From contig NC_049987.1 of the NCBI RefSeq assembly GCF_000003815.2, positions 3,769,683 through 3,833,682 on the forward strand: a stretch of DNA of 64,000 nt, in the 5' to 3' direction. Shown one piece after another: positions 8,229 to 54,800 of this stretch. Source of the stretch: Branchiostoma floridae (lineage: Eukaryota > Chordata > Leptocardii > Amphioxiformes > Branchiostomatidae). Below the pieces are notes generated by a model. The model was not told the DNA's origin. It made no database searches and saw nothing but the letters and a program-made list of their open reading frames with translations. A program made the position numbers and the translations under genes. Within the stretch, counting starts at the first letter, position 1. Each line of letters starts with the position of its first letter.

Positions 8229-11200
8229 ATGTCGGCCTGGCTTTGCGTGATACTCGCCTTAGGTTGTGTCATGTCGTATGGTAAGTTAACAATTTTTCGT
8301 TGCCAAAACATGGGTGCCTTTAAATATCCATGCGATTTTTAGAAGTGATTAATTCACGTTTTCGGGAATACATACGAATTGAATAAATCGAATACATGCA
8401 TTTCTTACTAATAGATCGAATTAGTGTTCTGTAAGCTTTAGATTGGCATGATTCGTTGTATATACCGTAAGACTCGTATGATTCTTTGTAGTGGGTCGTA
8501 TGAATTCGAATTCGTATTCCAGAAAACTCGTATGACTTCTATGAAACCTGAATTTATTCCGAATAAAGAGACTCTTTTTACACAACCAATGTTTTATTCT
8601 CATCGACGTTTTGGTGACCGTCTGTCACCTTCTTCAGGGCAATTCTGACTGGCTCACATTGTACTGCAGGACAGTACAATTATTTATTTTGAATTTATTC
8701 CGTTAAAGTCGTATGAAGTCCATTTAATTCTGAAAACTTGATTCGAGCTCCTGCTCTAATTATAACCAATCCAGAGACCCTCTTCTACTACACTTGCTCC
8801 TCCATGGCCCTTTAGTATCTTGAAGACTTGTGTCGCTACGTAGTAATAAGTCACTCTGGGTTTTCTCCTATTCTCCTACCTTCTCGTTACTTTTTTTCAG
8901 TTTCATTCTGCGCTGTTCTTGTCAACAGATTGTTTATTTTTTATGATTTAGATATTACGTTGGGACAACTGATAGCTTTTGCTGCTATCCCATGAAACGT
9001 TAACCTTAAAACATATGTGTCTCAGCCATTTATCCTTTTTTCTCGTGACTTTGTCCACCTCCACGTTTTTTTAACCGTATAGGAAGACCGATTCCACTGT
9101 GGTAATAAACATTCTGACTTTAATTCTGCGTTGGATCTTGGATTTTCTGTAGCTTGTGGGATTTTCTGACTTCAAAGTCTGTTTAAAAATATAATTCCGA
9201 ATATCTTAAGTTGTTGACCGCTTCTCCGGTTGTACCACTTCTAGTACAAATGATATTAGGTGTTAAAAAGATAACAGGCGTTTTCTGGTTGAAAGTCATC
9301 ATTTGGGGTTACTTGGAAATTAGCTAGAGAACTTTATTGCACAACTATTGTACGAGATACAAATGTATGGCAGCAACATAACTACAGTTTTATAGCTTAA
9401 CTTAAGGCATATCTAACTAATACAGAAGTTGTAGTATGGGATAAGTTTCTTACAATCATTGAAGGCTTTTACAATCATTGAGGAATTTCTAACCTTCTTT
9501 AATATATTTTCCTATATCTGTCATGCAGGGATTGTCACATGTCATGGTGTATTTGAATTGGCACTTCAGGTCCATTGAGATAGATCCTTGTGTATAAAAT
9601 GACAGCCTTATGTATAGAGAATTGGGCATATCAGAATATCTGGGACATACAACCATAAAGTGATATTCGTCTTCAGTTAGCTCTGGATAGAAAGGACAAA
9701 CCCTCTGGTCAATAGGGATTTGTGGGAATCTCCCAGTTTCTATATTCAATTTGTGACAGCCAATTCTGAGTTTTGTGATTGTCCTACGAATGTCAAGGCT
9801 ATTTAAGGTTGAAATGTAGTTTTCTTGCTTGTAATGCTTGTTGTAGAAAGAGAGGCTTCACATCATACGACTGCAATTGTCCGTTCACCATACAATGAAC
9901 TTCCTAATCTTACCGTACCCTCCTTCTTACAGGTTCCATTTCAAAAGATGAATTATACAAGGAAACAATGCAGGAGTCCACATGCATCTATGCATTTGTA
10001 AACAGGCCCCAGTTCAACAGCCCCCTCTACCGGGATCAAACGCTCTGCAGCGTTTGCTTGATCTTCCTAATCTTACCGTACTCTCCTTCTTACAGGTTCC
10101 ACTTCAAAAGATGAATTATGCAAGGAAACAATGCAAGAGTCCACTGTTTACGCATTTGTAAACAGGCAACCGTTCATCAGCCCCCTCTACCGGAATGAAA
10201 CCACTCTACAGCCTACGACTGATTCGCAGACTAAGACAGGTTGATCTTACCTTATTGTTTTACAGTTCTTTGATATTCGTCTAAACAGGCTTGTGTAACT
10301 ACAGGAGATATTGTAGCTTTTACAAATCCGTTTTATTAGAATATCAATAAATTGATGACAGGTCAGCTAACAATCATATGCATGTCTTGTTGGCATTAGT
10401 ATCGTTTTTTTTTTTCATATAATGTTTATGTATTTGATTGTACAACCTTGCTTATAAATAAATGCACGTCTTATTGGCATATCTAACGATCTTGTTGGCT
10501 AATCTTACTTTCCTTTATGTTCAGGATCAATTGAATCAGAGAAGACCACCACCGGGCCACAGTTCAGCAGCCCCCTCTATCGGAATCAAGGCGCTCTGCA
10601 GACTACGAGTGACCTGCAAACTAAGACCAATGGTAAGGGTAGTTGGTGTTTTCTCGCATTCTATCTTATTGATTATCCTGAGTAAATGTTTTTATTTCAC
10701 ACATTTCCAGAACCTAGGATGAATCTGGTTCAAAACACTCCATTTCGAAGTGAATGAAACTTTTTTGAATGGTTTACTGACAAAAATATTGATGAATGGA
10801 AGCAAAACATGTTGGCATGAGTCTGCATGATACGTCGAACAATGTGGGAAATCTGGTAAACTTAGGGTCAAAGGTGGTTGCTATCTGTTGCTAGTGGAGC
10901 CAACACCCACCTCGCTGGGGGTCTTCAGTGTGACCTAACCCTCGCCTTTGGCTGCGGCATTTCACCTGACGGGTTTGAAGGAGCTTAACACATGGGTAAT
11001 AGGCCCCGGAATGGGTTTTTTAATTGCAACAAAGAGGAAAATACAATCTTAATTTTCTTCAGCTTCAGGATCTTTTGAATCAGAGCAGACCACCACCAAG
11101 CCACAGTTCAGCAGCCCCCTCTACCGGGATCGACACACTCTGCAGACTCCGACTACCATGAAGACCAAGGCTAAGGGTAAGAGTGGTTGATCTTTTTTCC

Positions 11201-12773
11201 CCATCCCTTCATCTTCATTAGCATAACTTAAGGCTAATTATGCACAGTAGTACCTAATTTGCATAAGAAAATGGCAACGTTTTGCAATCCCGCTACAGTT
11301 AATTAAAGGATCTTTATATAGGCAACAGTTATAACTTTAAAAGAGAGAAGAATTAAGAGATATCAATTATGGAGATCACTACCTCTATGTTCAAGTGATC
11401 ATTGTTTTTATTTGCATAATCCCTAAGAAGCCTTCGTATTATGACAAATGATTACCATGTCACGCAAATTCATATATATATATATATACGTCACTAGTTA
11501 TTATTGGATGTACTGTAGTGGTAAGGCGTTGTTTTTTTGCAACCATTACTGTAAATGCAGAAATGTTCGCGGTGGATTAATGTTCGCGGTTTTCGCGGCG
11601 ACCACTTTACCGCGAACTTAAATCCACCGCAAACATTTTTCTATTATGGTAATAGACTGCAGTCTATGGTGTCACCGCGAAATTAAAACCACCGCGAAAA
11701 GTCCTTTTTCCCGCTACCACGAAATTAAATCCCCGCGAACTTAAATGCATTTACAGTAATTGTCTTTTCTTGTACTTGGGCAAAATCTGTCCACCGCCAC
11801 ACAAAATGAACAGATGAGGTCCGTATGGAATTTAGCCTCTCCCAGGCTCCACAGGTCGCTGGAAGAAAAATTGTAGAGATATAGACACATAATTATAACA
11901 TGCAGTGGTGTTAGCTTTCCAAAGAATATTCTTTGCGACCAGCCAACACTTCTGGCTATCTTTGTCCAATTTCTATTATTTTTCCAGCGACCTGTGTGGT
12001 ATTCCATTGCAAAAGAAAGTGTTATTTTCCAATAGATAATGTATCTCTAAATATATAATCAGCCGGCCTTTGGTGGAATTCCACTTGTGGTTAATTACGC
12101 AACGTGTGTCTGTAAAATGATATGACACTCACTAAGTCCATGCAGACCCTACGGTTGCATTCCTTATGCAGTGGCACTTCCTTAATCGCGATTATTTTCC
12201 GGCATAAATGAGGGGCGCTAAGCACACCAAGAAGGTCAATTGTAAAGGTATCAAAGAACACATGACGTGTTTTTCTTAGCGCCCCTGAAATCATATGTGT
12301 AACCAAACTTATGCCAGGCGTTGACGTTGCAAGACACATTGTATTCAAGCTATAGACTGGGATTGGTTAATTTGATTTGAGGGTACTTGGGGAGTTTTGT
12401 AGAAGACTAAATGCTGTTTGATGTGCGTGGGGCTAATGGGTATTTTATTTTAATGTGGAGTAAGTACTTCATGCGATGTTTACAAGCTTAAATCGCATAG
12501 ATGTTGACCAGTACCAATGATATAGGAACTTGGTAATTTTTATGAATTAAAAGACTTTGTTGTTGTACATCGAACTTTGCTATCCGGATCCGGTGACTTA
12601 CAACCTGATGAAACTATTCACGCCTCCTTTTTATTTCTTTTCCCACTGTAGCGAAATGTTTTGAAGGGGGATTTGCTTGCGACAACGGCGCGTGCATCTT
12701 TGGCAATTGGAAGTGCGACGGCGGGACAGACTGTCCGGATGGAGAGGACGAGTCGCCTGTCAACTGCCCATAG
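8229..12773 (+). CDS. Gene A: small secreted protein with repeated SPLYR exons and a C-terminal LDLa domain
   Basis: Model: exons 8229-8280, 10096-10239, 10525-10632, 11069-11176 and 12652-12773, total 534 nt, 177 aa. All junctions are GT/AG and all introns are phase 1. Exon 1 encodes a hydrophobic signal peptide ([17 protein letters not shown]). Exons 2-4 are homologous and each contains a version of F-(S/I)-S-P-L-Y-R-(N/D) in a Thr/Gln-rich context; exon 2 also has [14 protein letters not shown]. The last exon encodes one LDL receptor class A domain (residues ~140-176) with six cysteines and the calcium-site pattern W-K-C-D-G...D-C-P-D-G-E-D-E, then TAG. LDLa modules bind ligands outside the cell; the partner here is unknown. 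Seen: splice phase, repeats and cysteines. Inferred: secretion. I do not recognise the SPLYR family. Gene B is a paralogue. Confidence 0.72.
9489..9860 (-). pseudogene. Non-LTR retrotransposon fragment, C-terminal end of ORF2
   Basis: In intron 1 of gene A, on the opposite strand. The translation runs from a [15 protein letters not shown] stretch into [21 protein letters not shown] and VVCPRYSD. This is the Cys/His-containing C-terminal tail found after the reverse transcriptase domain in several LINE clades. No RT domain remains. Confidence 0.7.
9933..10080 (+). pseudogene. Truncated duplicate of gene A exon 2
   Basis: A tandem copy of exon 2 with its own acceptor (CCTTCTTACAG before 9933). 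It reads [16 protein letters not shown] and [10 protein letters not shown], then loses the exon's last part and its donor at CTCTGCAG and runs into a copy of the intron sequence upstream of the true exon 2. The duplication unit is about 160 bp. Without a good donor I leave it out of the gene A model. Confidence 0.65.
10690..10850 (+). pseudogene. Decayed copy of the gene A/B leader and signal-peptide exon
   Basis: In intron 3 of gene A. It contains CATTTCCAGAACC, GGTTTACTGACAA and GAAGCAAAACATG in the same order as the leaders at 8.1 kb and 16.7 kb, followed by ATG TTG GCA TGA, so the signal-peptide frame is broken at codon 4. It marks an earlier local duplication of the promoter and exon 1. 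Confidence 0.6.
11547..11758. mobile_element. Palindromic GCGG-type MITE, copy 1
   Basis: A 212-bp element with ends TACTGTAAATGCAGAAATG and ATGCATTTACAGTA. The interior is built from TTCGCGG/CCGCGAA and GGTGG/CCACC blocks that pair across the centre. Copies at 47826-48036 and 51029-51242 share the same termini. It has no coding capacity and lies in intron 4 of gene A. Confidence 0.85.
12016..12445 (+). repeat. Repeat family R3, copy 1
   Basis: Starts near GTGTTATTTTCCAATAGATA and includes TCAGCCGGC and an internal hairpin GGGGCGCTAAG...CTTAGCGCCCC (about 12209-12287). A second direct copy lies at 13198-13640 and an inverted copy at 17030-17420. Confidence 0.75.
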
Positions 12774-16813: not shown

Positions 16814-18549
16814 ATGTCGGTCTGGTTCTACGTGATGCTGGCTTTTGGCTGCGTCATTTTACCAGGTAGGTTGACAAACTTTTTTTTCTTAAACAGTGGG
16901 CCTTCAAAGGAGTCCCAAACTCGGCAAGAGAGTGTTATTTTCCGATAGATATTGACTTTATGAAGTACAACGTGCATGCTACTTCACAATATACGATAAA
17001 ATATCGACTAGTTTTGCGTATACGTACATCAAAAAGCATTCAGTATTGTGCTAAACTCCCTAAGAACTACATGGTTCAATTAAAAAAGCTAAGCCTATGG
17101 CTGAATACAGTGTGTCCGATATGGCCTAACAAAAATTCGCTTACAAAACCAATTTAAGGGGCGATGTTAAAAACTCATCTTGTTATGCGTTTGATATTTT
17201 GTGAGCATCGCCTCTCATTTATGCCAAGAATATGCATAATGAAGGAAGTGTCCATGCGTATAGGAAATGCATGGGTAGGGTCTGTTTGGGCTTAGTGCGT
17301 GTCATATTGTTGTACAAACACACGTTGCGTATCCCACCACAAGTGAAATTCAGCAAATTGTCGGCTGATTGTGTATTCATTTATACATGATCTATTGGAC
17401 AATGACATTCTCTTCTGGTCAATGACATTCTCTTAGGGCCCCTTTATGCATTCTTGCGAATGTTAGGACGCCGTTACACGAGCGCGTAAATCTGCATAAC
17501 AAGTCCGCATGAGGTCCACATAGACATTTCCTTTTATTCATACGTAGCCATACGCAGGGCAATCGGTTTATGTCAGTTTTAGGTACACATGCATAACCAC
17601 AGTTCGAAGAATACTGTATGTTCCGAAAAACAATGTATTCCGTAAAATTCGTACTTATTCCGTAAAACTCGAATGAATACCGTAATATTCGAATAGATAC
17701 TAAGTTTAGCCGCCCCTGCAATTTTTGGAAGTACTCAAATTTTCATAAGGCTAATATGTTGATTTTATTATATGGATGACATCCTATGGGGACCTCAAAA
17801 CTGGTGCGAAAGTGCGAAAAAAAATGGACAAATTGAAAATTATCATGAAAACTATTTTGAAATCTATGTGATTAGGGGCGTTAAACAAATAACCAAACAA
17901 TATGTTCTTCATTTTGTTCTTTCGCATTGGCATCTTTGTCTTTAGATTTGACATCAATATACGTCAATATACTTTCGATGTTTGTTTTGAACTTACGGCA
18001 TATATTTCCTCATTATGTAGCTGCTTTATATGACTTATAGCATGGTCGATTTTTTTTTATCTTTCAGGTTCCAGTTCAAAAGATGAATTATGTAAAGCAG
18101 CGGTGCAGGAGTCCACTATCTACGCATTTGTAAGCGGGCCACAGTTCAACAGCCCCCTCTACCGAGATCAAACCGATCTACAACCTACAACTGATCCACA
18201 GACTAAGACAGGTTAATCTTTTACCTTATTCTTTGCAGTTCTATCGTCTACAAAGGCCTATGCAAGTGAAGGAACTATAATTGTAGCTTTTACAAATCTG
18301 TTTTGTCTCAATATCAATAAATTGATAACACGTCAGATAAAAATCACTTGTCTTATATTGGCATTTGTATCATTTCTTCACAGATTATGTTTTTATATTC
18401 GTTTACATATCTTTGATTATTTTTTTTCACGTTCAGAACCATTTGAATCAGAGCAGATCACTACCAGGCCACAGCTCAGCAGCCCCCTCTACCGGAATCA
18501 AGACGCTCTGCAGACTCTCTCACCCTTCCCTCTTAATAAGCATGATTAA
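16814..18549 (+). CDS. Gene B: short secreted paralogue of gene A, no LDLa domain
   Basis: Model: exons 16814-16865, 18068-18211 and 18437-18549, total 309 nt, 102 aa. The first two exons have exactly the lengths of their gene A counterparts (52 and 144 nt) and the same phase-1 junctions. Exon 1 is a signal peptide (MSVWFYVMLAFGCVILP). Exon 2 has [25 protein letters not shown] and a Thr/Gln-rich end. Exon 3 has [19 protein letters not shown] and then reads directly into SPFPLNKHD and a TAA, because the donor used in gene A's equivalent exon is absent. The product is therefore signal peptide plus two SPLYR units only. It could be functional, a decoy-like short form, or a gene that lost its 3' part; the sequence does not decide. 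Confidence 0.66.
17030..17420 (-). repeat. Repeat family R3, copy 3 (inverted)
   Basis: Reverse-strand match to R3: CCTCTCATTTATGCC, GGGTAGGGTCTG, CAAACACACGTTGCGTAT and TCGGCTGATTGTGTATTCAT. It lies in intron 1 of gene B. Confidence 0.7.
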
Positions 18550-19559: not shown

Positions 19560-20043
19560 GCTAAATTGTACACTCAGGCCTTTCACATGAGAATCAAAGG
19601 CATAGAGTCAAAAACTGATGGTTTGAAATACAATTAATAATATAACTGAGTATTTGAAATACCATATATGAAATTTACAGCCTTAAGATTAACACTATTC
19701 AAAATACTGTAGAAATGATTTACAGCAATAAGATTGAACAATTGAATATTTAAGATACTATAGACATAATGTTCAGCAATAAGATTAATAGAACTGAGTA
19801 CTTATATAATTAAAATACTATAGACATAATTTACAGTAATAAGATTAATAGAAAAATTTAGTATTTAAGATACTATTGGATGACTTATACACTCTTTCAC
19901 ATGACAATCTAAGACATAGTCAAACACTGACTGTTGGCAATACAATTAATAACATAACTAGAGTAGAATACCATACACGAAATTTACAGCCTTAAGACTA
20001 ACAGTAAAATACTGTAGACATGATTTACGGCAATAAGATTAAT
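19560..20043. repeat. Degenerate flank of the 52-bp minisatellite
   Basis: Diverged, indel-rich copies of the unit in the next entry (TATTTAAGATACTAT, CAGCAATAAGATTAAT). Confidence 0.7.
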
Positions 20044-20460
20044 AGAACTGAGTATTTAAGATACTATAGATATAATTTTCAGCAATAAGATTGATAGAAC
20101 GGAGTATTTAAGATACTATAGACATAATTTTCAGCAATAAGATTGATAGAACGGAGTATTTAAGATACTATAGACATAATTTTCAGCAATAAGATTGATA
20201 GAACGGAGTATTTAAGATACTATAGACATAATTTTCAGCAATAAGATTGATAGAACGGAGTATTTAAGATACTATAGACATAATTTTCAGCAATAAGATT
20301 GATAGAACGGAGTATTTAAGATACTATAGACATAATTTTCAGCAATAAGATTGATAGAACGGAGTATTTAAGATACTATAGACATAATTTTCAGCAATAA
20401 GATTGATAGAACGGAGTATTTAAGATACTATAGACATAATTTTCAGCAATAAGATTAATC
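20044..20460 (+). repeat. 52-bp minisatellite, 8 units
   Basis: Eight head-to-tail 52-bp units, nearly identical after the first. Each contains AGAACGGAGTATTTAAGATA, CTATAGACATAATTTTCAGC and AATAAGATTGAT. There are no unique spacers, so it is not a CRISPR array. Confidence 0.97.
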
Positions 20461-20689
20461 GAACAACTGAGTAGTTAAAACACTATAAAGAAATATACAA
20501 CCATAAAATAATCACAGCGTTCTAAATGCTTTGTTATCTTGAACATTTTACATTGGCGGTCGCTACAATACAGGACCATTTACAAGGTTGAATTTGATGA
20601 GCTTTTCATTTACATTTCTTCGCATCAAATAAAAGGAATATCCTTCATACATGCTGCGTTAAGTCCGCATCTACGCAACGCCTGGCCGT

Positions 20690-21085: not shown

Positions 21086-24000
21086 TCAATAGCGTGAGAA
21101 TATAGTGACGGTACTGTCGTAATAATCTGTCACTACCAGCTGTCCACCCGGTGTTACTGCCACACCGCATGAGCTGGACATGTTGGTAGCGACGCTGCGA
21201 ACGTACCGCCCGTTCTGGGTAAACCTCTCCACCGTCCCACCAAACCCTGTCCCCACCAAAACGTCCCCTGAAATGTCCGTACACATTCCCATGACCAAGA
21301 TTCTCTGACCGACTTCTGCCTCACCGTCACCAATTCTGTCACCGCCGAAACTAGACAGGTAGTGGCCAGTGTTGTTATAGACGTACACAGGGATGTCGGA
21401 CACAAACAGGTCGGACACAAGCAGGTTTCCCTCCCGCCCCACTGCGACCCGCCCGGGGTACTCTGGGCCCTTCTCCGTCCTAAACTTACGAACGACAGTC
21501 CCGTTGAAATGCAGAAGCTTCACTTCCCCATAATCACTCCGGATCCAGAACTCTGTGACTACGACAAGATTGCGAGGTGTGTCCACCGTGATGCCAATGA
21601 AAGAATCGTTGGTGAATGTTGCACGAAGCGTTGCAAGGTGATGCCCCATTGTCGTATACCGAACGATGAACCCTGTCAGATCGTTGTCTTTGTCTCCCAC
21701 CACCCACAGGTGACCCTCCCCGTCCATAGATATGTCCTCGGGTTCTATCGTTTCGGAGGCTTCTCCGGAAATAACGGCAGGAAAATGGCGGAGGTAGACG
21801 CCCGTCATGCTGAAGACTTGAACTCGCCTGTTGTAGGTGTCCGCTACAAACATCTCGTTGCTAGGAGACACGACAACAGCTTTTGGTCCGTCAAGCTGGC
21901 CCGGTTCCTTTCCTTCTCCACCGAAGACAATCGTCGTTTGTTCGAGGTCTTTATTTTCGTTCTCTGGAGAAGATTCAAAATAAAAGAAATGCTAATGCAA
22001 CGGATTACATTTTATTTTGTGTTTAGAAAACAGATTTGGTGTTTTCTGTTTCGGATATGTTTTTGTTTTCAGCAGTGCTATGTCAGGGGGGCCTAAGCAT
22101 TTGCACGAAACCTATGAGATTCGTACGAACATTATGTGATACGCACGAATCACTATGCGAAAACGCACGAACCTTATGAAAATCACACGAATCACTATGC
22201 GAAAATGTACGAACCTAATGAAAATCACACGAATCACTATGCGAGATTTGCTCGAACCTTATGCGAATGACGTGATGTCACGTAACCCGGTGACGGTTGG
22301 CCGGTTTCAACAGGTTTGTTCGAATCACATAAGGTTCGTGTGTGTTTACATAGTGATTCGTGCGAATCACATAAGGTTTGTACGTTTTCGCATAGTGATT
22401 CGTGTGATTTTCATAAGGTTCGTGCGTTTTCGCATAGTGATTCGTGCGTATCACATAATGTTCGTACGAATCTCATAGGGTTCGTGCAAATGCTTAGGCA
22501 GTTTAGACACCCCTGTATATATCGTTGATATAAAACATTAACATCGTGGGTATCATGGAATGTTGTCTTTTTTGTATGACAATGCAGGTGAGAGTGCCAA
22601 ATCACCATATTTTCATCCCAGATAAGCCAGTACATCTGGATATTTCATGGTTGCATTCACTGTAACAGATACACTGTTATTTTATCTTATAGGAAAGATC
22701 CCATTATGCTCTCGCATCATCTACATGTAAAGAGTGGGCTGATTTGCCATTTTACACACAAACGTGATACAGATGTTAGGATATTTCAATCTTTCCTACG
22801 AGAAGCGGAATCAGCCGGAATGCCGTCAGAATTAATTCTTTGTATATTCCTGGGTATTCGTAAAGCATTCTAGAAATCCTCACTGCGTTCCAGATATTTC
22901 TGTCCATTCTTGTGGGCCGTCACGAATGCTTTTGTCGTGCTCAAAACTTTCGAGGTGCATTTGAAGTGGAGAAATATCGAATAGCATCCAAATTGTATTC
23001 AAACTTCAGTATTACCACATTCTACGGAATTCTAACATTATTAAAAAAAATTCTAATCTCATTCGATAGAGAACCGAAACGGCAAGCCACTTCAAATCCT
23101 CAGAATGTGGCCAAAAGAATATCTGGAATGCAGTGAGAATTTCTAGAATGCAATACGGATACCCAGGAATAGACAACGAATAGTTATCCCGACGGCATTT
23201 CGGTTCATTCCTTATCGTGCGCAGGGGATACAAGGTCCATTTGGAATATTTCCACCCGAATGTGGCACGAATTTTGCAAATTCGTTACTCCGGCTGGTTC
23301 TGCTTGATTCCTGCTAATTCTGTTTCAGTGTGAAGGCCCTATTAAGGTTGCTAGTATTGACGAAGTATTACCTGCAGTGCTGGTTGGTGGAGATGACGTG
23401 TAGTTCACCTGTCGGGTTACGTCATCTGTAGTTGTGTCTGTGAAGGTGGGGCATGTAGTTTTAGCGGTGAGGTTGGGCCTTGTAGTTTTACCAGTGAAAG
23501 AGGGTTCTGTCCATGTCTGAGAAGAAAACAAATAGGAAGTCTATAAAGTAAGTTTTTTTGCACAACCAATGAGTACTTACTTCCAACGTTTCGCTGTCGG
23601 TAAGACACCATCATTAGGGTTAGAATGGCTGGATACGATTCTCGCTGCTACTTATAGCCGTTGTAGGTGGCGCTGCAGCAGCGAGAATGCCGTCCCAAAC
23701 GTGGCTCAGTTTGTATCCCCCCTCATCTCTGTTCATGATAATGTCTGACAGACACCGAAACGTCGGAAGTAAGTACTCATTGGTTGTGTGGTTGTGCCTA
23801 AAGAACCTGTTACTATAGGAATAATTGCCAACCTGATGAATTTATTCAAGGAAATAGGAAGTCGGCTAGAAATTCAGCATATGCATGAGAATTCAACATG
23901 TATAACGTTTCAATCAACATCAACCCTAATCTTCTATTCTTCAAAGGGCCTTGCAAAATATCAGTTCATCTGATTCCTATTAAAGTACGTTCACAATATG

Positions 24001-26471
24001 TGGTAGTACTGTCAAGATATACAACTTACAGTTTGCATTTGATTGTTCTGTTTTCCTGGTAGGAAGGCTGCAATAATAAGAGCTGCCAGAACCGTTATCA
24101 CCGTCACCACCACTCCCGTAGTGATGACATAGGCCAGGCAAGATCGAGTCAGTGCACACGCATTAGCTGAAAAGCAAATGGAGTAATGCCTAGGTCCCAA
24201 GTCCCAACCAGGGGCCCGGCCGGGTAGCTTTCGGAAACGAAAAATATGATAAGAAAGGTAAAAAAAAACACACAGAACGTAAAAGGAATTAGTCAGGAGC
24301 ATAGTTTGTGTATATTCCTTGGTAAATACTTTATATTTCGTTTCCGCTAACATCCCGGCCGGGCCCCGTTTCGTAAATGGGACCTAAGCCTAAGAAAGAA
24401 ACCCGGTAAATTGCACAACTGCAGAAGGTAACAAAGGCAATTGTAACAAAGTATAAAAATCTTAACATATATAGGACTACACATTACCTTCACCTGCCCT
24501 TGGTTGTGTAATATTAGGGGCGTACATGGGGTTTAAGTGTAACCCGTTCCCGCTGTACATGGGGTTGGGGCGCAGACCGCCCGCTTTGTTATCCACAGCC
24601 TCTGTAGAAGAGATTGAAACAGGATAAAAGATGTACGCTCACTATCTTTTTTGATAGTGCCACATTCTTCTGTTTCCGAACAAGCCGTACCTATGACCCT
24701 ACGTATGAACTATTAGCCCGGCGTCAGTTAACCTTAAATATCTATATGTGGCCTGTCACGAAGAGCAGATAACATGGACTAAAAGACTATCAAAAAATGA
24801 TTGAAAGGAATTTTCGAGCTACAAAATCCTCGAACAGGAATGATCCAAAACTTGTGATAATGGACAAATTCACTTTGATGACGTTACGGTTATTTCATCA
24901 AAACCTTTCCTGATTTATTCATGGATTTTTAAAACCACATATTAAATAGTGGTCACTAACTTGTTATACCCCTTTCCACTTGGATGGCGCTCTTGCCGCC
25001 TTCTCTCTGTGACCTAGTTTTTGATAGATCGCTCAACGAATTGTATAGAAAAGAAACGAATCTCTTTAAACTTTGTGTGTTTTGTTGTCCTCTCAATCAC
25101 ACTTTTACGTTTTGTGTGAAAGCGAAGATTACACATATTCTATTTAGGCCGCAATGAGAGCGCAGCGCGATCGCCGTCTAGTGGAAACTAGTGCTAAAGG
25201 GCGGGGGGGGGGGGGGCTTACTGTGACAAAATTGACCAACCGGCAGTGCTTCCAGGCTGAGAACTGTCGGCACAACGGCCAGTCGGTGTTTGGGTCTCAC
25301 AATGTCCATCCTGTACATCATAAGCAACGGCGTACGGTTGGACGTCACAGGCATCGTCTTGGTCACCGTTTGTTTGGCCGTCCAACTGATACCTGACAGC
25401 ATACGGACGGATGCACTCATCGCTTGATACGGCTTTGTTTCCGCTCTGGGGATTGTTGACAGAACGACCAGTTTGGTCCTCATTATGTCCATCCTGTTCG
25501 TCATAAGCAACGGCGTACGGTTGGACATCTTGTTCGCCGTTTATTTGGCTGTCTCGGCAATAAGCAACTGCATAAGGACGGATGAACTCATTGTCTGGCC
25601 GGGCTTTGGTTTCTGCTTTGTTCTGAGCAGAGATTTTAGCGTCATTTAACTGTTTGATCGTCTTTGGTCGAGTTCCAGCCTCGTCTTCTGCTTCGTTATG
25701 TGCATTTTCGACTTCGATATCTGGTCTGTCCATATTGGCATTAGCTACATCTCCGCCGCATTGGTAAGCAGAGGCTGATGTTTCGGGGGAGGTACTCTTC
25801 AGCTGGTATTGCACTTCATTATCTGCGCTACAGTCGTCAGTATTGTAGATGTCTTTGGACAGGGATTTTTCAGTGTCTATACCAGGGTTGTCAACGTAGA
25901 GCGTTTGGTTCCGTTCAGCGTGGTAAGCGTGTGTGTGTGAAGTGCACATTGCCGGTAGAGAACGCCTTTTCATGTAAAGTGCTTGATTCTCTTCACCTTT
26001 GCCGATTTGTGAGTAGGAAGTGCAGACAGCCGGTAACGATGTACGTCCTGCTACGTTGTTAGAGTTGTAAAAAGGTCTACCATCCTGGTCAGAATTTTCA
26101 GCCGAAGCGTTGCTGTGGTCGTCCTGCAAAGGATGCAAAGGATGTTCCGCGTTGCCCAATGAGATGTCTTCCTGCTCCTCTGGACTGGCAGGGATGTCTT
26201 GTTGATCCTCAGGGTCCGCTTTGTCAGAATACTTGATGGTCTCTGGTCGAGATCCATTCTGGTCGACGTCTTCTTCTTCTTGGTTTTTTACATCACTGAC
26301 TTGGACATCTGGGCGGCTCACACTGACATTATTTTTAACGACATCTCCATGGATGCCCTGATGATTCACAGTCTCTGTTGTAGAGTCAGGAGAGTCACGG
26401 TCCATGTTGTCGGGTATTTCATGGCCGATGCCGCTGGAGAAATCGTCTGCTGTGTTGTAAATCCCATCCAT
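21086..26471 (-). CDS. Single-pass membrane protein: tyrosine-motif N-tail, TM segment, Thr-rich stalk, NHL propeller
   Basis: Exons (minus): 1 26471-25241 (or 25222), 2 24601-24488, 3 24166-24030, 4 23516-23372, 5 21963-21086; about 834 aa. Exon 1 encodes an acidic tail with no signal peptide and four P-Y-A-V-(A/R)-Y motifs (Y300, Y319, Y357, Y380). Exon 2 adds two N-P-M-Y motifs. Exon 3 is a membrane segment (~459-483, LAYVITTGVVVTVITVLAAL). Exon 4 is a Thr-rich, probably glycosylated stalk. Exon 5 starts with IVFGGEGKEPGQLDGP and has about six NHL blades (FVADTYNRRVQVFS, VVTDYYDSTVTIFS at the end). Type II topology is inferred: tail cytosolic, propeller outside. Junctions 2/3, 3/4 and 4/5 agree in phase. 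The strong exon 1 donor (CACA|GTAAGC, phase 2) does not fit exon 2 (phase 1); the weaker G|GTTGGT at 25240 does, or a small exon is missing. NHL propellers bind protein or RNA; ligand unknown. I recall this tail from lancelet proteins but cannot check. Confidence 0.88.
22084..22515. mobile_element. 432-bp palindromic MITE, hAT-like CAGGGG ends
   Basis: Lies in intron 4 of the NHL gene. The ends read CAGGGG and CCCCTG. Just inside, GCCTAAGCATTTGCACGAA (22091) pairs with TTCGTGCAAATGCTTAGGC (ends 22499), and the arms stay complementary for about 120-180 bp. The arms are themselves made of tandem CGAATCACTATGCGAAAA-like units. CAGGG termini are typical of hAT elements, but I found no convincing 8-bp target duplication. 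Confidence 0.85.
23563..23790. mobile_element. Inverted-repeat element (MITE-like)
   Basis: CACAACCAATGAGTACTTAC at the left pairs with GTAAGTACTCATTGGTTGTG at the right. ACGTTTCG/CGAAACGT lies just inside, with GAGAATGCC/ACGATTCTC-like pairing toward the centre. Located in intron 3 of the NHL gene. Confidence 0.75.
24188..24390. mobile_element. Short MITE with CCGGCCGGG subterminal repeats, copy 1
   Basis: The left GCCTAGGTCCCAAGTCCC and GGGCCCGGCCGGG pair with the right CCCGGCCGGGCCCC and GGGACCTAAGCC. AGCTTTCGGAAACGAAAA pairs with ATTTCGTTTCCGCT. In intron 2 of the NHL gene. Relatives at 27036 and 29380. Confidence 0.8.
24965..25190 (-). mobile_element. MITE with CCCCTTTCCACT ends, copy 1
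   Basis: The reverse complement aligns with 30419-30673: GGCGATCGCGCTGCGCTCTC near one end, ATATTCTA/TAGAATATGTGTAA and AACGAATT/AATTCGTT in the body, and CTAGTGGAAA-type ends. It lies 30 bp from the 3' end of NHL exon 1. Confidence 0.7.
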
Positions 26472-27147: not shown

Positions 27148-29317
27148 TTCAAGTTTCAAGTTTATTTATTTTACCAGGGAATACCTCAGATCCATTGATC
27201 TGATTTTCAGGTATCCCTGGACACACATTAAAAATTACATGACACAGTTTAAACCCAACAATATACAAATAACGTTGCAAACATTTACATGTACAAAACA
27301 GTCTCAGTATAGGCACATCTGCAGTCATCTACAGTCCGTTTTTAAATGCTGACGTTGACGTGTGTTTCCGCTGATCAGCAGCGAGACTATTCCACAGGAC
27401 AGGCCCTAGGTACTGCAGGCTGCCCTTGAAGGTTTCCACATGTGCTTTTGGAGTGTCCAGCATGTGAGGGTCGAAGTTGTAGAGCTGTTTCGTAGCGGTG
27501 CGAGTACGAACTCTAAGCACTGGGGGCGACAGCCATTTGAACATTTGTGTCATGTAGGCAGGTGCCTTGTGGCGAACTGCCTTGTGTACAGTCACTAACG
27601 TGTTCAATTTCACCCTTTCAATCAGGGGTACCATACCAGCCTCTGTAAGCAGGGTTTCTGTAGGTACACGATCTTTGAGTGATCGCCCAGTAATAATCCT
27701 GGCTGCCCGATTTAGCAGTTTAGTCAACTGTTGTGATCTTACTTTGTTACAATGAAAAAGTGACAGTAACCATGCAGTATCACAATAATCCAGGTGAGTA
27801 TATAACAAGGTTCGACACATGACTAGCAGGATCTCCTTAGTAACATAAGGCTTAGCCCGGCTTAAGGCACTAAGGCCAGCAAGGAGCTTCTTTACCATCC
27901 TTTCTGTGTGTGCTGACCAGTTTAGAGAGGAGTCCATGGTGACACCTAGGTAAGTATACACTTTTACCTGCTCAAATGAGTTAAAACCATCAGTTACAGT
28001 GACAGTGTTTCCTGCGTGACGCAGTTTCTGAGGTGATCCAAATAACATGGCTTTAGTTTTGTCAGGGTGAAGTGATAGTCTATTTACAATAAACCAGTTA
28101 GCTACCAGTTTCATGTCCTCTGACACAGTTTCCTCACATTCCTTAGACAGGCTAGCCGAGCAATAAAGCACAGTGTCGTCTGCGTACATATGGATTTTAC
28201 ACTTACGCACAACCTGTGGTAGATCATTCACATATAAGCTGAATAACAAAGGACCTAACACGCTCCCTTGCGGGACACCACACGTGACACGTTTTTGCGT
28301 AGACTGCTGGTTCTGAATATCTACGTGCTGGAAACGGTCTGTGAGGTAAGATCTGAACTAATTTATCGCCCCGTTGTCAAAACCCATCTTCTGAAGTTTA
28401 CCAAGGAGGATTTGGTGGTTGACAGTGTCGAACGCTTTCCTTAGGTCAAGGAACAGCGCGACAGTTACCTTCTTGTTGTTTTGTGCTGACTGGATGTCCT
28501 CCACCACCTTTTGCACTGCTGTACCTGTGCTGTGGTGTTTTCTGAAACCACTTTGGTGGGCCGTGAGCTGGCAACTACTGTTCACAAAGTGTGAGACCTG
28601 GTTGTGAACCATTTTCTCCATCACTTTGGAGGCCACATTTAGGACAGAGACAGGACGGTAGTTGGAAACACTGTCTTTGTTCCCTGATTTGTATATGGGC
28701 GATAATTTAGCCAGTTTCCAGTCGTCGGGAACTTCACCTGATGTTATAGACAGGTTAAAGATGTGTGCTAACGGTTTGACAATTATAGGCGCAGAATCCT
28801 TAAGGAGCCTTGATGGAATCTTGTCAACTCCTGTGGCTTTCTTTGGCTTGAGCCTAAGAAGCTCGTTTAGGACCTCTGTTTCTTCAACTGGCCGCAGGCG
28901 GAAAGTCGATGTTGCCTCAGGAACATGACGAAGGGGATCCTCCTCGGACACTGGGATATCCCTTGCCAAGTCTGCTGCACATGACGAGAAGTAGTTGTTA
29001 AACTCCTCAGCCATTTTGGAAGGTTCAGATATACAACTCTCGTCAGATCGTCGTATTTTCCGGACTTGACATTTGCCTTTTGTTTTTCCTGTGAAAGTGT
29101 TGATAATTTTCCACATTAGACTGGAATCTTCTGCAGCGTCGGTGATGGCACTTTCAAAATGAGTTTTCTTCGCCTTCTTAATCATTGATGTTGTTTGGTT
29201 CCTGAGAGACCGGTAGAGTTCTCAGTCCTTCGTGTCCTTCGTCTTGATGGCTTTGCGCCTTGCAGCATCACGTTGGCCCATTAGGTTCTTTACTCTGTCT
29301 GTAAATTTGTATGTTTC
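27148..29317 (-). mobile_element. 5'-truncated non-LTR retrotransposon (CR1/L2-like) with inactivated ORF2
   Basis: Reverse transcriptase of a LINE. One ORF2 frame runs from about 29315 to its stop at 27329. It contains the RT blocks [65 protein letters not shown] and YADDTVLY (catalytic DD intact), then the C-terminal segment ending FKNGL. Two in-frame stops break it: TGA before ELYRSLRNQ (about 29221-29219) and TAG before [10 protein letters not shown] (28357-28355). Both sit where Trp would be plausible (TGG to TGA/TAG). The endonuclease half is missing, so the copy is truncated and dead. After the stop comes about 180 bp of 3' sequence ending in AAACTTGAAACTTGAA instead of poly(A), typical of CR1/L2-like elements. 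The exact clade is not assignable by eye. Confidence 0.93.
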
Positions 29318-30418: not shown

Positions 30419-30673
30419 TTAAGGCCCCCTTTTCCAGTAGACGGCGATCGTGCGGCGCTCTCACTGCGACCTAGATAGAATATGTGTAACCTTTGATTTC
30501 ACACTGGGAATATCATACAAAACGGAAAAGTGCGACTGAAAGGACATTCAACAAAACACAAAAAGTGTAAAAAGATTAGTTTCCTTTCTAAATAATTCGT
30601 TGGACGATAAGTCAAAATTTCTATCGCATGGAGAGCTCGGCTTGAGCGCCGTGCCTAGTGGAAAGGGGGTATA
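30419..30673 (+). mobile_element. MITE with CCCCTTTCCACT ends, copy 2
   Basis: Left TAAGGCCCCCTTTTCCAGTA and GACGGCG; right CGCCGTGCCTAGTGG and AAAGGGGGTATAA. The termini are imperfect inverted repeats. Diverged inverted copy at 24965-25190. Confidence 0.75.
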
Positions 30674-31229
30674 AAGCTAGGCCGGACGTGCTTTTTGTCC
30701 GTACGTTTTTTGGGAGGTCACGTCCGCCACGTTTTCTGAAAACGTGGGGAAGGACTGGCAAGAGCAGGGAGGGAGTACGTCTCAACGCACGTCTCTCGCA
30801 CGGTTGCGCAAGCTAAGGTGTAAGCATGTGGTCTGCACGCCACGCCTGGCCGTGAGCCGGTTGCGTGCATCATTCGTAGCGCAAGTGGTAAGTGAGTTGT
30901 ACGTGCTTACAACATACAATCTCTGTGCGATTGCCCACGTTTTGGCACGTAGACACCACGCAGTTGCAAGTACGGATAGAGCTCGGCCGACGTGTTGACG
31001 AGCTCTAGATGGGCATTGGCGACTACGTGGACTCGGGCCCTAGCGAGACGCGCGCACGAACCTAAAAACTATCCAGCTGGCGGGTACTTTGGGGGTTAAT
31101 GCTTTATAATGCAACTGCTCTCTTGTCCAAGTCCAATATAAAGTGGCCGATACAATTACATTTTGGGATTCAGAAAAATATTACTAGCAGAACCGGAACA
31201 CTCTTCTCTGGAGTACAGTATTGCTTTTA
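30674..31229. other. GC-rich intergenic block, no gene
   Basis: Contains ACGTTTTCTGAAAACGT (palindrome near 30728) and the short repeat shared with 20690-20760. The open frame across it has no protein signature. Confidence 0.45.
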
Positions 31230-33691: not shown

Positions 33692-33917
33692 ATAACGCTA
33701 GTTCACCTTTATCCGCGGTGTGACCTTTATCCGAGGTCATTAAAAACAGCACATTTAGGAGTATTAAGTCTGCGGACTGTGGTTTCAAATATTCTCTAAA
33801 TGTTCCGATTTGAAACCACCGTCCGTCGACTTCATATGAATCATATCCCTAAGTATCGTACGTTATTTTTACAAACAATGGATATAGGTATCCTCGGATT
33901 AAGGTGAACCAACGTTA
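33692..33917. mobile_element. R4-type MITE, copy 3, adjacent to the kringle exon
   Basis: Left TAACGCTAGTTCACCTTTAT, right GGTGAACCAACGTTAGG. Internal GGTTTCAAAT/ATTTGAAACC. Its right edge is about 20 bp before the acceptor of the kringle exon. Confidence 0.78.
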
Positions 33918-33936
33918 GGTGTTCTTTTACCTACAG

Positions 33937-35130
33937 GCATAGACTGCGTTGTACCGGGAAGTTGGTCATCCTACCGGGGAGCAGTTTCTCTGACCCGAAC
34001 AGGCAAGACGTGCCAGCGCTGGGACAGTCAGACACCACACGAACACAAGTACACACCTTCTGACTATCCGGCTTCCGGACTGGAGCAGAACTACTGCCGG
34101 GAACCGGATGGCAACGAGCCCAGACTTTGGTGCTACACCACGGATCCCGGCACGAGATGGGAATATTGTTACGTGCCATTCTGTGGTAAGATTTGATTCT
34201 CAAAGCTTATGAGTGTTTGTTAACCTGGAAGCCATTATGAGCCAATTAACTGTAAACTTTGGCCCCCTTTACCCTGGCATTACAACCGAATGACCTGAAA
34301 TTTTGCACAGAGGTTTTCTGATCATATATTCACATAGATTCTATAACACCGTACAACAAAATGCTTAATTTTGCAATTTTGGGCCAGTCTTTGACCCAAA
34401 CAGTACATTTCAGGCTCCTGTACTCTGTTTTTAAAATCAAATGACCTGAAATTTGGTCTAGGAGTACCTGCACACATGCCTCTTATTTTGACCTAACTTA
34501 CTGTCTGCCAGCGCGAAACTACCCCCCCTCCCCAGTATGAACCTTAGCCCACATTGACAATTGTTTGTGAATTAGCACTCAATCAAGAAAACAAAGATAC
34601 ACCTAGAAGCCAAAGTTCTCGAATAATTTCTTCCATGGAATAGCTTCCTTATTTACTACCAAGACATACATATAACCACAGCCAACGTTTCGGTAACCGG
34701 CTGTGTACAGCTTTTCAACACTGCAGCTAGGTGTCACTGCTAACCACCCGGTTTCAAACGCAAAGAGGTGTCATACATGCGGTCCTAAACGGAAATTGCG
34801 GTATAGTACAAGCTTGTATTCCCTTGAGAAAGGTGCAAGACGGTCACAGAAACGTCGTGTGTGATTTTATGTATTGGCTGCTATCCATTCCTGAAATTTA
34901 CTGGTTTAGTTTTACCATGCTGAATTATGCTTATTACTTCTTTTCATAATGAAGAGACTGGGTGGTGTCCTGGTGAAGACTTCCTCTGCGATCACTTCGT
35001 GTGCATCTATGCCAGTTGGAAGTGTGACGGCACCGCAAACTGTCTGGACGGAGAGGATGAGTCACCTGCCAACTGCCCAGATCTTTACCCAACAGATGGC
35101 ATTAGTCATACTACACCCATTATTCGTTAA
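33937..35130 (+). CDS. Gene C (5' partial): kringle domain plus C-terminal LDLa domain
   Basis: Two exons: 33937-34185 (249 nt, phase 1 at both ends) and 34955-35130, ending at TAA; 141 residues visible. Exon 1 is one whole kringle from D-C-V-V-P-G to V-P-F-C with all six cysteines and the [10 protein letters not shown] and [15 protein letters not shown] blocks. The Asp pair of lysine-binding kringles reads D-G-N, so one acidic residue is lost and lysine binding is doubtful. Exon 2 is an LDLa domain with six cysteines and [15 protein letters not shown], very like gene A's (both have DGEDESP then NCP), then a 15-residue tail. The second acceptor (AATGAAG|AG) has a poor pyrimidine tract but is the only one in phase. 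Kringle and LDLa modules are extracellular binding domains. No start or signal exon was found. Confidence 0.85.
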
Positions 35131-51856: not shown

Positions 51857-54800
51857 CTATTTCCGGCAGGTCACCACCACTTTGTATGGTGCATCCGCGT
51901 CATCTGGCCTCTCACCAACCGGAAAGCTGAAGTGGAAGTTTTGGACCAGTCCGCCCAACAGGAGATACGTATCGGCCATACCCATTTTCTCTCCTGGGCA
52001 TGCGCGGCGACCAACACTAAAGGAGAGAATTTACAAGAGTAGATTAGATAACATTTACATCTGTGCCCTAGATCAGCATGTATACCCCTTCCCCACGCGG
52101 CAGCCACGATAGATCGAAACCGACGCCAAAGTGGCAAACAGAACACCGTCCATTATAATTAGCGGTTCAACCAATAACACACCTTTCTCAGGCGGCGGCC
52201 ATGATAATTCGAAACCGAGGCCAAAGTAACAACGAAAAGACTGTCCATCGTAATCAATAATAGGATGGCAATTAGGGAATCGACCAATAAAAGAATGGCT
52301 GCATGTCCGTCAATTTTTTTTGCATTTTTATGTTTTTATTTTGCATCTCATCTTTTGGTGCATAATACTAGTTCTAATATCTATTAATGACTTTGTAAAC
52401 ATTTGTTTAGTTCGGGGGGGGGGGGAATGGAAGCTGATTTCAGAGAGTACGTTTTGTCTATTTGCCTCACCGACCTCCTTTTTGATCTATCATGGCCGCC
52501 ACGTGAAAAGGGTATATCATACAATCTCTCGCCGCCAGTGGCTCATGCATTTGAGCCTGCTGTACTGACCTGCACCTACGATTAATAACATCTAAGTCAA
52601 AAGATTGATTAAAAAAAGAAAAGAAAAACACCAATAGGAGCGCTAGATTCTATATCACTATGCAAATAGGATCCCGGAATCTTCCGTTGGAGCAGCCTCC
52701 AACAGCATTGTAATAAGATAGTTCTTAGTCTGACCATAACCGGTCCTTGTGACCTCTTCTGCATCGATCATAAGAGCTAGCCAGTGTCGACATACGTGCT
52801 TTAAACCTTACGTAAAATACGCGTATGCTCTTGGGGTCTTTTCGTCACATGGTGTTCACTGTTAGATTGTGTTATAAAAGCTTAAGTCTACAAAACTGCA
52901 AAGTGCCAATTTAAATGTCGGACATACATACATACAAACATACATACATACATACATACATACACAACCTTTATTTTAACTGGATGGCCCTGTCGGCCTC
53001 AGCCGCTCTTCCCAGATGTCAAATGTGAGGGGGGGGGGGGGTCACGGGAAAATGAATAAATTAATACATTTTTCGCATCTCTGATTCTCGAGATTCTTAT
53101 GGAGATGACAAAGTTGACAAAAGAAGACAGTATGAATCTTACTTAACCTACGTCTGATAATGTATCATACTGACCAAAAAGGCATCCATGCAAAAGGCTT
53201 TGGCATCAGCTTGCCACTCTCATCCAAGAAACGTTCGGGACGGAAGGTGTGGGGATCCCCCCAGATGTCGGGGTCGTGGTGAAGCGCCCACAAGTTCGGC
53301 AGTACCATCGTGCCCTTCGGAATATGGTAACCTCCTAAGACACAATTGGAATGAATCCTTGACTTCCAACCAAAAAGATTCCGTTACTCAAGCATCTGGA
53401 TATGAGTTTGGAAACGGTCAGACGTTTTAGACAGCCATCCGTCTTTCGTCAGTAAAATTGGTGAAATCTTGTTGGAGAGAGTTTTTATATCCTAGCTGTC
53501 AATTTATATGTGCAAGAGATCTAGATGGAAAACAGGTTTATACTAATTAACGCTAGGGTCACTGACAAAGACACCGGATGGCTGTCTGAAACGTCTGCTG
53601 GCCGTTTTCGAAATCATATTCAGTAACTGCTTTGTGGCGTATCTTATTACCTGGATTTATAACCTTCATCGGCGTATATACGCATTAACACCTGGGGCTA
53701 TAACGAAATGATAACAACATGTTGTTACAACTTAAAAAAATTGTATTATCATACAGCCAGGCGCCGCGGACCAATCACTTGAAGGTCCCATTCCATGTTG
53801 GTTATTGTTAAGAGATATAGATTCCGGCCAGCTCTTTCTGATTGGTTAGAATGAATAGACACCGGTGTCGATAAGACACTTAAAACAACGTAACTCGATC
53901 ATAGACAACACTACGTTTTACACAATACATAATTTTGAAGATATATTAGAGACCATCATTGTACTTCAAAATCATCCTGTAAATTTAGCGAACGTAAACT
54001 ATCAAACGTTCACATCGGTGGTGGCAGGTTGAACCTTGGAAGATTAGCCCGTAAGGGCTAAAAGGTTTCTTAATAAACAACAATAATAAACAACAAAGCA
54101 GGCTTAGACGGGCTTAGACAGTGTAGCAAGTAATCTTATAATGTGGAGAAGCTGGGTCCTTACTATAGGTTCTAATGTGTGTTTAAGATCCTCACTTTAT
54201 AAATACATTACAGAGGCGACTCGTACTCACGCAGTGACGTGTCTTGAGTCGTAGCACGCGGTAGGGACAATGGATCAGGGATTCCCATCCTCAGTACTTC
54301 ATTGACGGTGGCCTCCGTATATGGAGTATTCTGGCGGTCACCAAGCCCAGTCAGCCTGTCACGGCCCACCACACTGTCTAACTCAGCAGCCACCTTCTCC
54401 TGTATCTCCGGGTGGGCAGCAAAGAACTGGATGGCCCAGCGTAGGGCATGTGTCGTGGTTTCCGTTCCGCCTGTGTAAGTTACCAGAATTTGTTCTCACG
54501 AAAGTTGATAACAGATACCCACAACAACACTCTCTACAGTAGTATATTTCGGACAGTATTTTACACTGATGAAAAAAACATTTTTTTCAATTCAATGATT
54601 GCGAAATATGGCACATCATGCACTCGCCGCTGCAATGTGATTTGCAACTGACGGAGGCAAACAAACACCAGGCGCTGTCTCGCTTTGTTGCAAGCTCACG
54701 CACTTCACTTCAGAAATGTGCTCTCGCGTGAATACATTCAAAATGGCCACCGTATCTGAAATGAGGTCTATTGCAAGTTCATAGTGGTTATTCTCACGAC

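Follow-up and report, generated by a model that had tools for sequence, protein, structure and literature searches.

A gene of the lancelet Branchiostoma floridae on contig NC_049987.1 seems to couple a long N-terminal tail of repeated tyrosine motifs to an NHL beta-propeller, and an earlier note on this DNA saw in that tail a cytosolic scaffold for signalling or endocytosis attached to an outside-facing propeller. Do tail and propeller belong to one protein, on which side of the membrane would the tail lie, and what might its tyrosines do there? From our analysis of 64,000 nucleotides of this contig (the window) and of related copies in the same genome, we favor, with moderate confidence, a type II receptor in which paired tyrosines would be phosphorylated docking sites and NPMY motifs would serve PTB or endocytic adaptors.

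According to the gene model that we derived from the sequence, the window gene consists of five exons on the minus strand (26471-21086) with compatible phases and encodes about 835 amino acids. The exons specify, in this order, the tail, the NPMY motifs, a transmembrane helix, a Ser/Thr stalk and the NHL propeller:

25241..26471, minus strand: exon 1, ATG and 410-residue acidic N-terminal tail with repeats; ends in phase 1 at donor G/GTTGGT
24488..24601, minus strand: exon 2 (phase 1-1), holding the NPMY motif twice, with its N at 24566 and at 24533
24030..24166, minus strand: exon 3, transmembrane; helix at about 24128-24060 (hydropathy 2.85), preceded by TRSCLAY
23372..23516, minus strand: exon 4, stalk rich in Ser/Thr; contains two N-glycosylation sequons
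21086..21963, minus strand: exon 5, NHL beta-propeller and stop codon

The first exon stays open over 410 codons, a length that would arise by chance with a probability of about 2e-9 at its own base composition; an in-frame stop lies immediately upstream of the ATG at 26471, and position 25241, the lower boundary drawn in the earlier note, is the final base of the exon. The encoded tail is probably disordered and falls into the disordered region of the charge-hydropathy plot. Its splice donor is weak (3.1, scored with an approximate matrix), as is that of the closest paralogue of the window gene (GTTAGT). We accepted the donor at 25241 despite this score because paralogues splice at the homologous position, where C6e, C6d and C1a carry G/GTAAGT. 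Alternative donors at 25222 and 25301 were rejected, as, by our reading, both lead to stops when joined to exon 2 and the paralogues use the 25241 position. Exon 2 could also end at 24494, likewise in phase, and the membrane helix of exon 3 reads VITTGVVVTVITVLAALIIAAFL. The NHL assignment of exon 5 rests on a Pfam score of 59.4 bits against a cut-off of 20 (E=2.2e-16); an AlphaFold model of this exon alone reached a mean pLDDT of 38 and was discarded.

Around these exons, intron 1 holds a repeat (24964-25187) whose beginning lies about 54 bases away from the donor of exon 1 and which is 75% identical to 30431-30674, and introns 2-4 contain inverted repeats. Upstream of the start codon, at a distance of less than 1 kb, two adjacent frames encode a reverse transcriptase (Pfam RVT_1; 27332-29221, minus strand), and a 52-nt tandem array (20005-20464; 8.8 copies, 97% match) lies about 0.6 kb past the NHL exon. 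Six exon-like frames on the plus strand (9908-11190 and 18034-18549) each contain one [PQ][QP][FL]xSPLYR unit, with SPLY at 10019, 10179, 10569, 11113, 18151 and 18481, a separate repeated tyrosine unit near the window gene. An LDL-receptor class A domain (12612-12770, plus strand; Pfam 2.6e-11) and a kringle domain (33903-34193, plus strand; Pfam 2.9e-25) are perhaps ectodomains of neighboring genes; a cytochrome P450 exon is present at 54211-54495 on the minus strand (Pfam 5.6e-25), and Rfam gave no match within the 64,000-nt window.

The repeats of the exon 1 tail were assessed by local alignment, each pair against 1000 shuffles, with residues counted from the ATG at 26471:

26217..26462, minus strand: tail block 1 (IYNTADD ... 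RPETIK), residues 4-85; aligned to block 2 with a score of 94 (best shuffle 55)
25638..25850, minus strand: tail block 2 (IYNTDDC ... RPKTIK), residues 208-278; repeats block 1, by local alignment
25971..26039, minus strand: SLPAVCTS unit 1; 64 against unit 2 (best shuffle 30)
25893..25961, minus strand: SLPAMCTS unit 2; local alignment to unit 1
25437..25592, minus strand: PYAV pair 1 (IRPYAVAY ... VQPYAVAY), motif starts 25577 and 25520
25248..25421, minus strand: PYAV pair 2 (IRPYAVRY ... VQPYAVAY), motif starts 25406 and 25337

All three duplications that the earlier note had described, those of the IYNT block, of the SLPA(V/M)CTS unit and, in tandem, of the paired PYAVAY unit, thus hold up, the last with a score of 149 for pair 1 against pair 2 (best shuffle 50); at the DNA level we found direct repeats of 59 nt (88% identity) and 45 nt (76%). 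By alignment, the solid part of the block duplication is the RPDxxV...RPxTIK stretch, and the first IYNT varies at its tyrosine, the closest paralogue reading INNTADD. The two NPMY motifs said to follow the repeats are both present, but in exon 2 (24601-24488) and hence outside 25241..26471. Regular tyrosine spacing, also claimed, applies to the PYAV pairs and does not extend to the remaining tyrosines of the tail; exon 1 encodes 18 tyrosines in all. PYAVxY starts at residues 299, 318, 356 and 379, compared with a mean of 0.00 in 500 shuffles.

In terms of established tyrosine signals, this paired-tyrosine motif matches none of the ITIM, ITAM, YxxM and YxN patterns. No match was found to the ITIM pattern [SIVL]xYxx[ILV] (shuffle mean 0.50) and none to the ITAM pattern Yxx[LI] x6-12 Yxx[LI], and none of the SH2 consensuses that we tried exceeded shuffles. 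Common definitions of SH2, ITIM and the other motifs were used, and that of the ITIM is also given in PMC8211107.

Is this architecture peculiar to the window gene? When its own genome (513 Mb in 431 contigs) was searched with the tail, 35 matches emerged, which we assign to the window gene and to 20 further copies spread over nine contigs. The DNA downstream of the 20 paralogous tails was examined in 19 stretches, and an NHL match follows the tail in every one of the 20. A single frame covers the full length of the NHL match in 16 copies; L012 has it broken in two, with each piece in a frame of its own, and for L017, L025 and L026 the match stops near residue 211-229 of 293. Between tail and NHL, a match to the NPMY exon is found in 19 of the 20 paralogues, and one to the transmembrane exon in 14 by tblastn (three of them marginal, E 0.035-0.048) and in 19 when hydropathy is added. 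This conserved exon order argues that the tail is joined to the NHL exons of a membrane protein, as the earlier note had proposed, and contradicts the opposite possibility that the two are not joined. Several family copies look damaged, judging from their sequences, and two paralogous tails contain in-frame stops. One C6 paralogue (L010:710-2500) has a stop in frame within its PYAV unit and might be a pseudogene or an allele. A further C11 tail (L023:8803-9459), located near the end of a stretch, was left out of the NHL count. Three distant copies (L029+L034, L030+L035 and L031+L036) likewise show a tail and then an NHL frame, confirmed by Pfam in the first and the third, with L030+L035 partly masked. 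Including the window gene, at least 24 NHL-joined copies, some with interrupted frames, are therefore present in one genome.

Across the paralogues the tail is modular, with zero to six PYA[VA], zero to three PYAV pairs and zero to six NPMY motifs. By our reading, two PYA[VA], equivalent to one pair, occur in 12 of the 20 tails; C9b and C6e have two PYAV pairs, C6b and C6d about three, C16b combines PYAV with PYAI, and the tails of C1a and C1b contain one PYA[VA] each (the regex count of 2 for C1a includes one motif in its NHL exon). Only the C5 tail has no PYAV; the other 19 of the 20 paralogues each retain one or more. Certain C6 and C4 tails contain several HGIPASPEEQEDI units, and NP[ML]Y was not found by regex in two of the 20 copies. 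PYAV inside the NHL exon was seen in one of 20, as EPYAVVV with the second tyrosine absent. The paralogue rows of our motif alignment were picked by a PYA...QPYA regex, and the invariance of P-Y-A in them is partly built in. Since paralogues carry zero to three PYAV pairs and zero to six NPMY, the duplication is not peculiar to the window copy, whose double duplication is, on this comparison of sequences, one of the states that a fluid array of repeats can take.

Between the window gene and its closest paralogue, dN/dS amounts to 0.42 in the PYAV region and 0.78 in the tail outside it; the values for the NHL, transmembrane and stalk exons are 0.40, 0.39 and 0.41, and the NPMY exon, with six amino-acid changes and no silent ones, yields no ratio. 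Because dS in the PYAV region is also low (0.115), conversion between copies could mimic constraint, and it is possible that the signal reflects such conversion. Within the gene, the six motif codons of the four motif copies differ by 17 synonymous and seven other changes when all pairs, which are non-independent, are counted.

The motif extends beyond the NHL family. With the 53-residue PYAV pair of a C18 copy as the query and E up to 1, we retrieved 83 places in the genome, 29 of them in the close NHL family and 54 elsewhere by hand count. Eleven of the 54 outside places, picked mainly for long open frames, were read, so that our view of how widely the genome uses the motif is drawn from the close family and these eleven: three distant NHL genes, two N-terminal-type tails with NPMY-like repeats (L039 and L040, tail portion read) and six LRR receptors (L028, L032, L033, L037, L038 and L041; Pfam LRR_8). 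The LRR genes are arranged as LRRs, linker, membrane helix and C-terminal tail, and in all six PY[AS][VI]x[YF] occurs two to nine times in the tail and not at all in the ectodomain part read of the same frame; the tail sequences of L037 and L038 continue past the end of their stretches. Individually, the LRR matches to the PYAV query are weak (E 0.005-0.45), and it is by placement and common context that we consider the motif to be shared by the two classes. The shared context consists of an Ile two positions before the Pro, the second Tyr and acidic residues thereafter. In units chosen on PYA[VIA], with three loci forming the LRR set, the Ile at -2 is found in 30 of 44 close NHL, 16 of 19 distant NHL and 10 of 11 LRR units, and the second Tyr in 36 of 44, 18 of 19 and 10 of 11, respectively. 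The presence of IxPYAVxY[D/Q][E/D] on both classes suggests, as far as sequences can, that the two share a signalling code which apparently has not been described before. As to other repeats of these tails, L028 and L032 also carry YNPA units (seven LYNPA in L028 and similar runs in L032), and in the LRR tail of L038 (382-1998) LQPYSVTYDEDPGP alternates with LQPHAVTHDEDPGP, in which His replaces both tyrosines.

These data allow us to weigh the possibility that the tail is cytosolic but mostly a disordered spacer, whose modules are gained and lost through unequal crossing over and carry no signalling meaning. The wide variation in module number among the paralogues, the dN/dS of 0.78 in those parts of the tail that lie beyond the PYAV region and the lack of enrichment for the SH2 motifs tried are what such a spacer would lead one to expect. 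However, a spacer would not readily account for the retention of PYAV in a fast-evolving tail in 19 of 20 copies, for the lower dN/dS of the PYAV region or for the same motif on an unrelated class of receptors, and we consider this explanation rather unlikely.

Alternatively, the tail might serve endocytosis, chiefly through NPMY, with the PYAV tyrosines being incidental. Two NPxY matches in the window protein (NPMY at residues 423 and 434) against a shuffle mean of 0.07, and up to six NPMY per paralogue, speak for a role of this kind. YxxPhi, however, is rarer than in shuffles (1 against a mean of 3.0), two of 20 copies are without NP[ML]Y by regex, and NPMY was not seen in the LRR exons read although PYAV is present in them; endocytosis as the main function is thus an improbable explanation.

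On which side of the membrane, then, does the tail lie? A cytosolic tail and an outside propeller, as predicted in the earlier note, remain the best reading, and the best available argument for it comes from motif placement. In the window gene, 19 of 20 NHL copies and six LRR genes, which make up a proposed PYAVxY group, the motif lies opposite the ectodomain across a single transmembrane helix, N-terminally in the one class and C-terminally in the other. LRRs are usually extracellular in receptors of the LRR type; if this holds for the six LRR genes, the shared motif would place the NHL tails in the cytosol too. Charge rules do not enter into this argument but point in the same direction: in 18 of the 21 NHL copies (C9b, C16b and C9c were left out, their helix not being clear) the mean net flank charge is +1.0 on the N-terminal side and -0.17 on the C-terminal side, with the N-terminal flank more positive in nine, equal in eight and less positive in one, and in three LRR genes the tail flank is more positive by one each. 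The reverse arrangement, with the tail outside and the NHL domain inside as in TRIM-NHL proteins, would agree with the cytosolic location of the closest solved natural NHL domains (TRIM, Brat, Thin and Mei-P26), with the equal charge of the two helix flanks in the window gene (+1 each) and with five N-glycosylation sequons on the tail side. Yet no hydrophobic stretch at the N-terminus precedes the 457-residue N-terminal region of the window protein, the Ser/Thr stalk stands on the NHL side, and the charge bias of the family and the motif on LRR C-terminal tails point the other way, so that we give this topology only a very small chance. Sequons themselves were rejected as a topology indicator, being present on both sides of the helix (six on the other side). 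That tail and NHL exons come from different genes, for which the weak exon 1 donor and the recognized hazard of lancelet annotation, where PMC4967905 describes domain-combination claims as prone to prediction errors, might be cited, is hardly credible, since the same exon order is repeated in 20 paralogues on nine contigs, the phases are compatible and several relatives have canonical donors at the homologous place.

The type II receptor that we favor might accordingly be pictured as follows. The acidic, disordered N-terminal tail would reside in the cytosol, a single helix would cross the membrane, and the Ser/Thr stalk would hold the NHL propeller outside the cell, where it would bind a ligand. 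A Src-family-like kinase would phosphorylate the paired tail tyrosines, and the phosphorylated PYAV tyrosines would dock SH2 proteins, with repeats raising avidity and being gained and lost freely. NPMY would recruit PTB or clathrin-adaptor proteins, leading to signalling or uptake. A broader proposal, which we put forward tentatively and hold a little less likely than its opposite, is that IxPYAVxY[D/Q][E/D] acts in lancelet receptors as a code with an ITIM/ITAM-like role: a single reiterated phosphotyrosine docking module on the cytosolic tails of many type II NHL and type I LRR receptors that recruits a dedicated SH2 adaptor or phosphatase. If so, the repeat number of a docking module would set gain. 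A motif common to unrelated, oppositely oriented receptor families would offer a handle on receptor signalling in a basal chordate and a direct test of how phosphotyrosine codes of the ITIM/ITAM type arise and spread. Neither the PYAVAY motif nor an amphioxus NHL receptor was found described in the literature within our reach, which mostly excludes subscription journals. Relatives of the tail were likewise absent from viral_contigs, genome_contigs and the PDB, collections not expected to hold lancelet relatives, so that this absence gives no age for the motif.

Among known systems, receptors with NPxY motifs, exemplified by those of the LDL receptor and integrin type, resemble the window protein in carrying these motifs near the membrane; they differ in that its motifs lie N-terminal of the helix and number up to six per paralogue. 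By NHL sequence, the nearest solved natural proteins are the TRIM-NHL proteins, and a profile built from 20 members of the family finds Brat, TRIM2/3/71, Mei-P26 and Thin. These proteins are cytosolic, whereas the window protein has a transmembrane exon before its propeller; Pfam found no RING or B-box in the tail or the transmembrane-exon frame, and exons 2 and 4 were judged by reading.

Teneurins are type II proteins whose N-terminal domain is intracellular and whose six-bladed NHL propeller lies outside the cell (PMC6297184). The succession of N-terminal tail, helix and NHL in the window protein is similar, its type II fit being predicted from exon order. It is nevertheless without the EGF, YD/RHS and toxin-like domains of teneurins: Pfam gave no YD match in the NHL exon, which terminates in a stop, and the teneurin NHL model falls under its cut-off (E=0.17). 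Because these other domains are missing, identity with a teneurin was ruled out. The tails also contrast, SH3-binding sites being described for those of teneurins and tyrosine repeats being present here.

A functional parallel comes from the same animal group. In the amphioxus LRR receptor BbLcLRR, tail tyrosines are phosphorylated by Lck, and the protein, expressed in T cells, associates with SHIP1, as reported in PMC8211107; the sites mapped there (DDYATV, HDYSEV and HDYDDP) do not correspond to PYAVxY. Like BbLcLRR and the ITIM/ITAM receptors, the window protein would be a membrane receptor with tyrosines in its tail, from which the IxPYAVxY motif, the NHL ectodomain and the type II orientation set it apart. 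On this precedent (PMC8211107), such phosphotyrosine machinery exists, working with other motifs.
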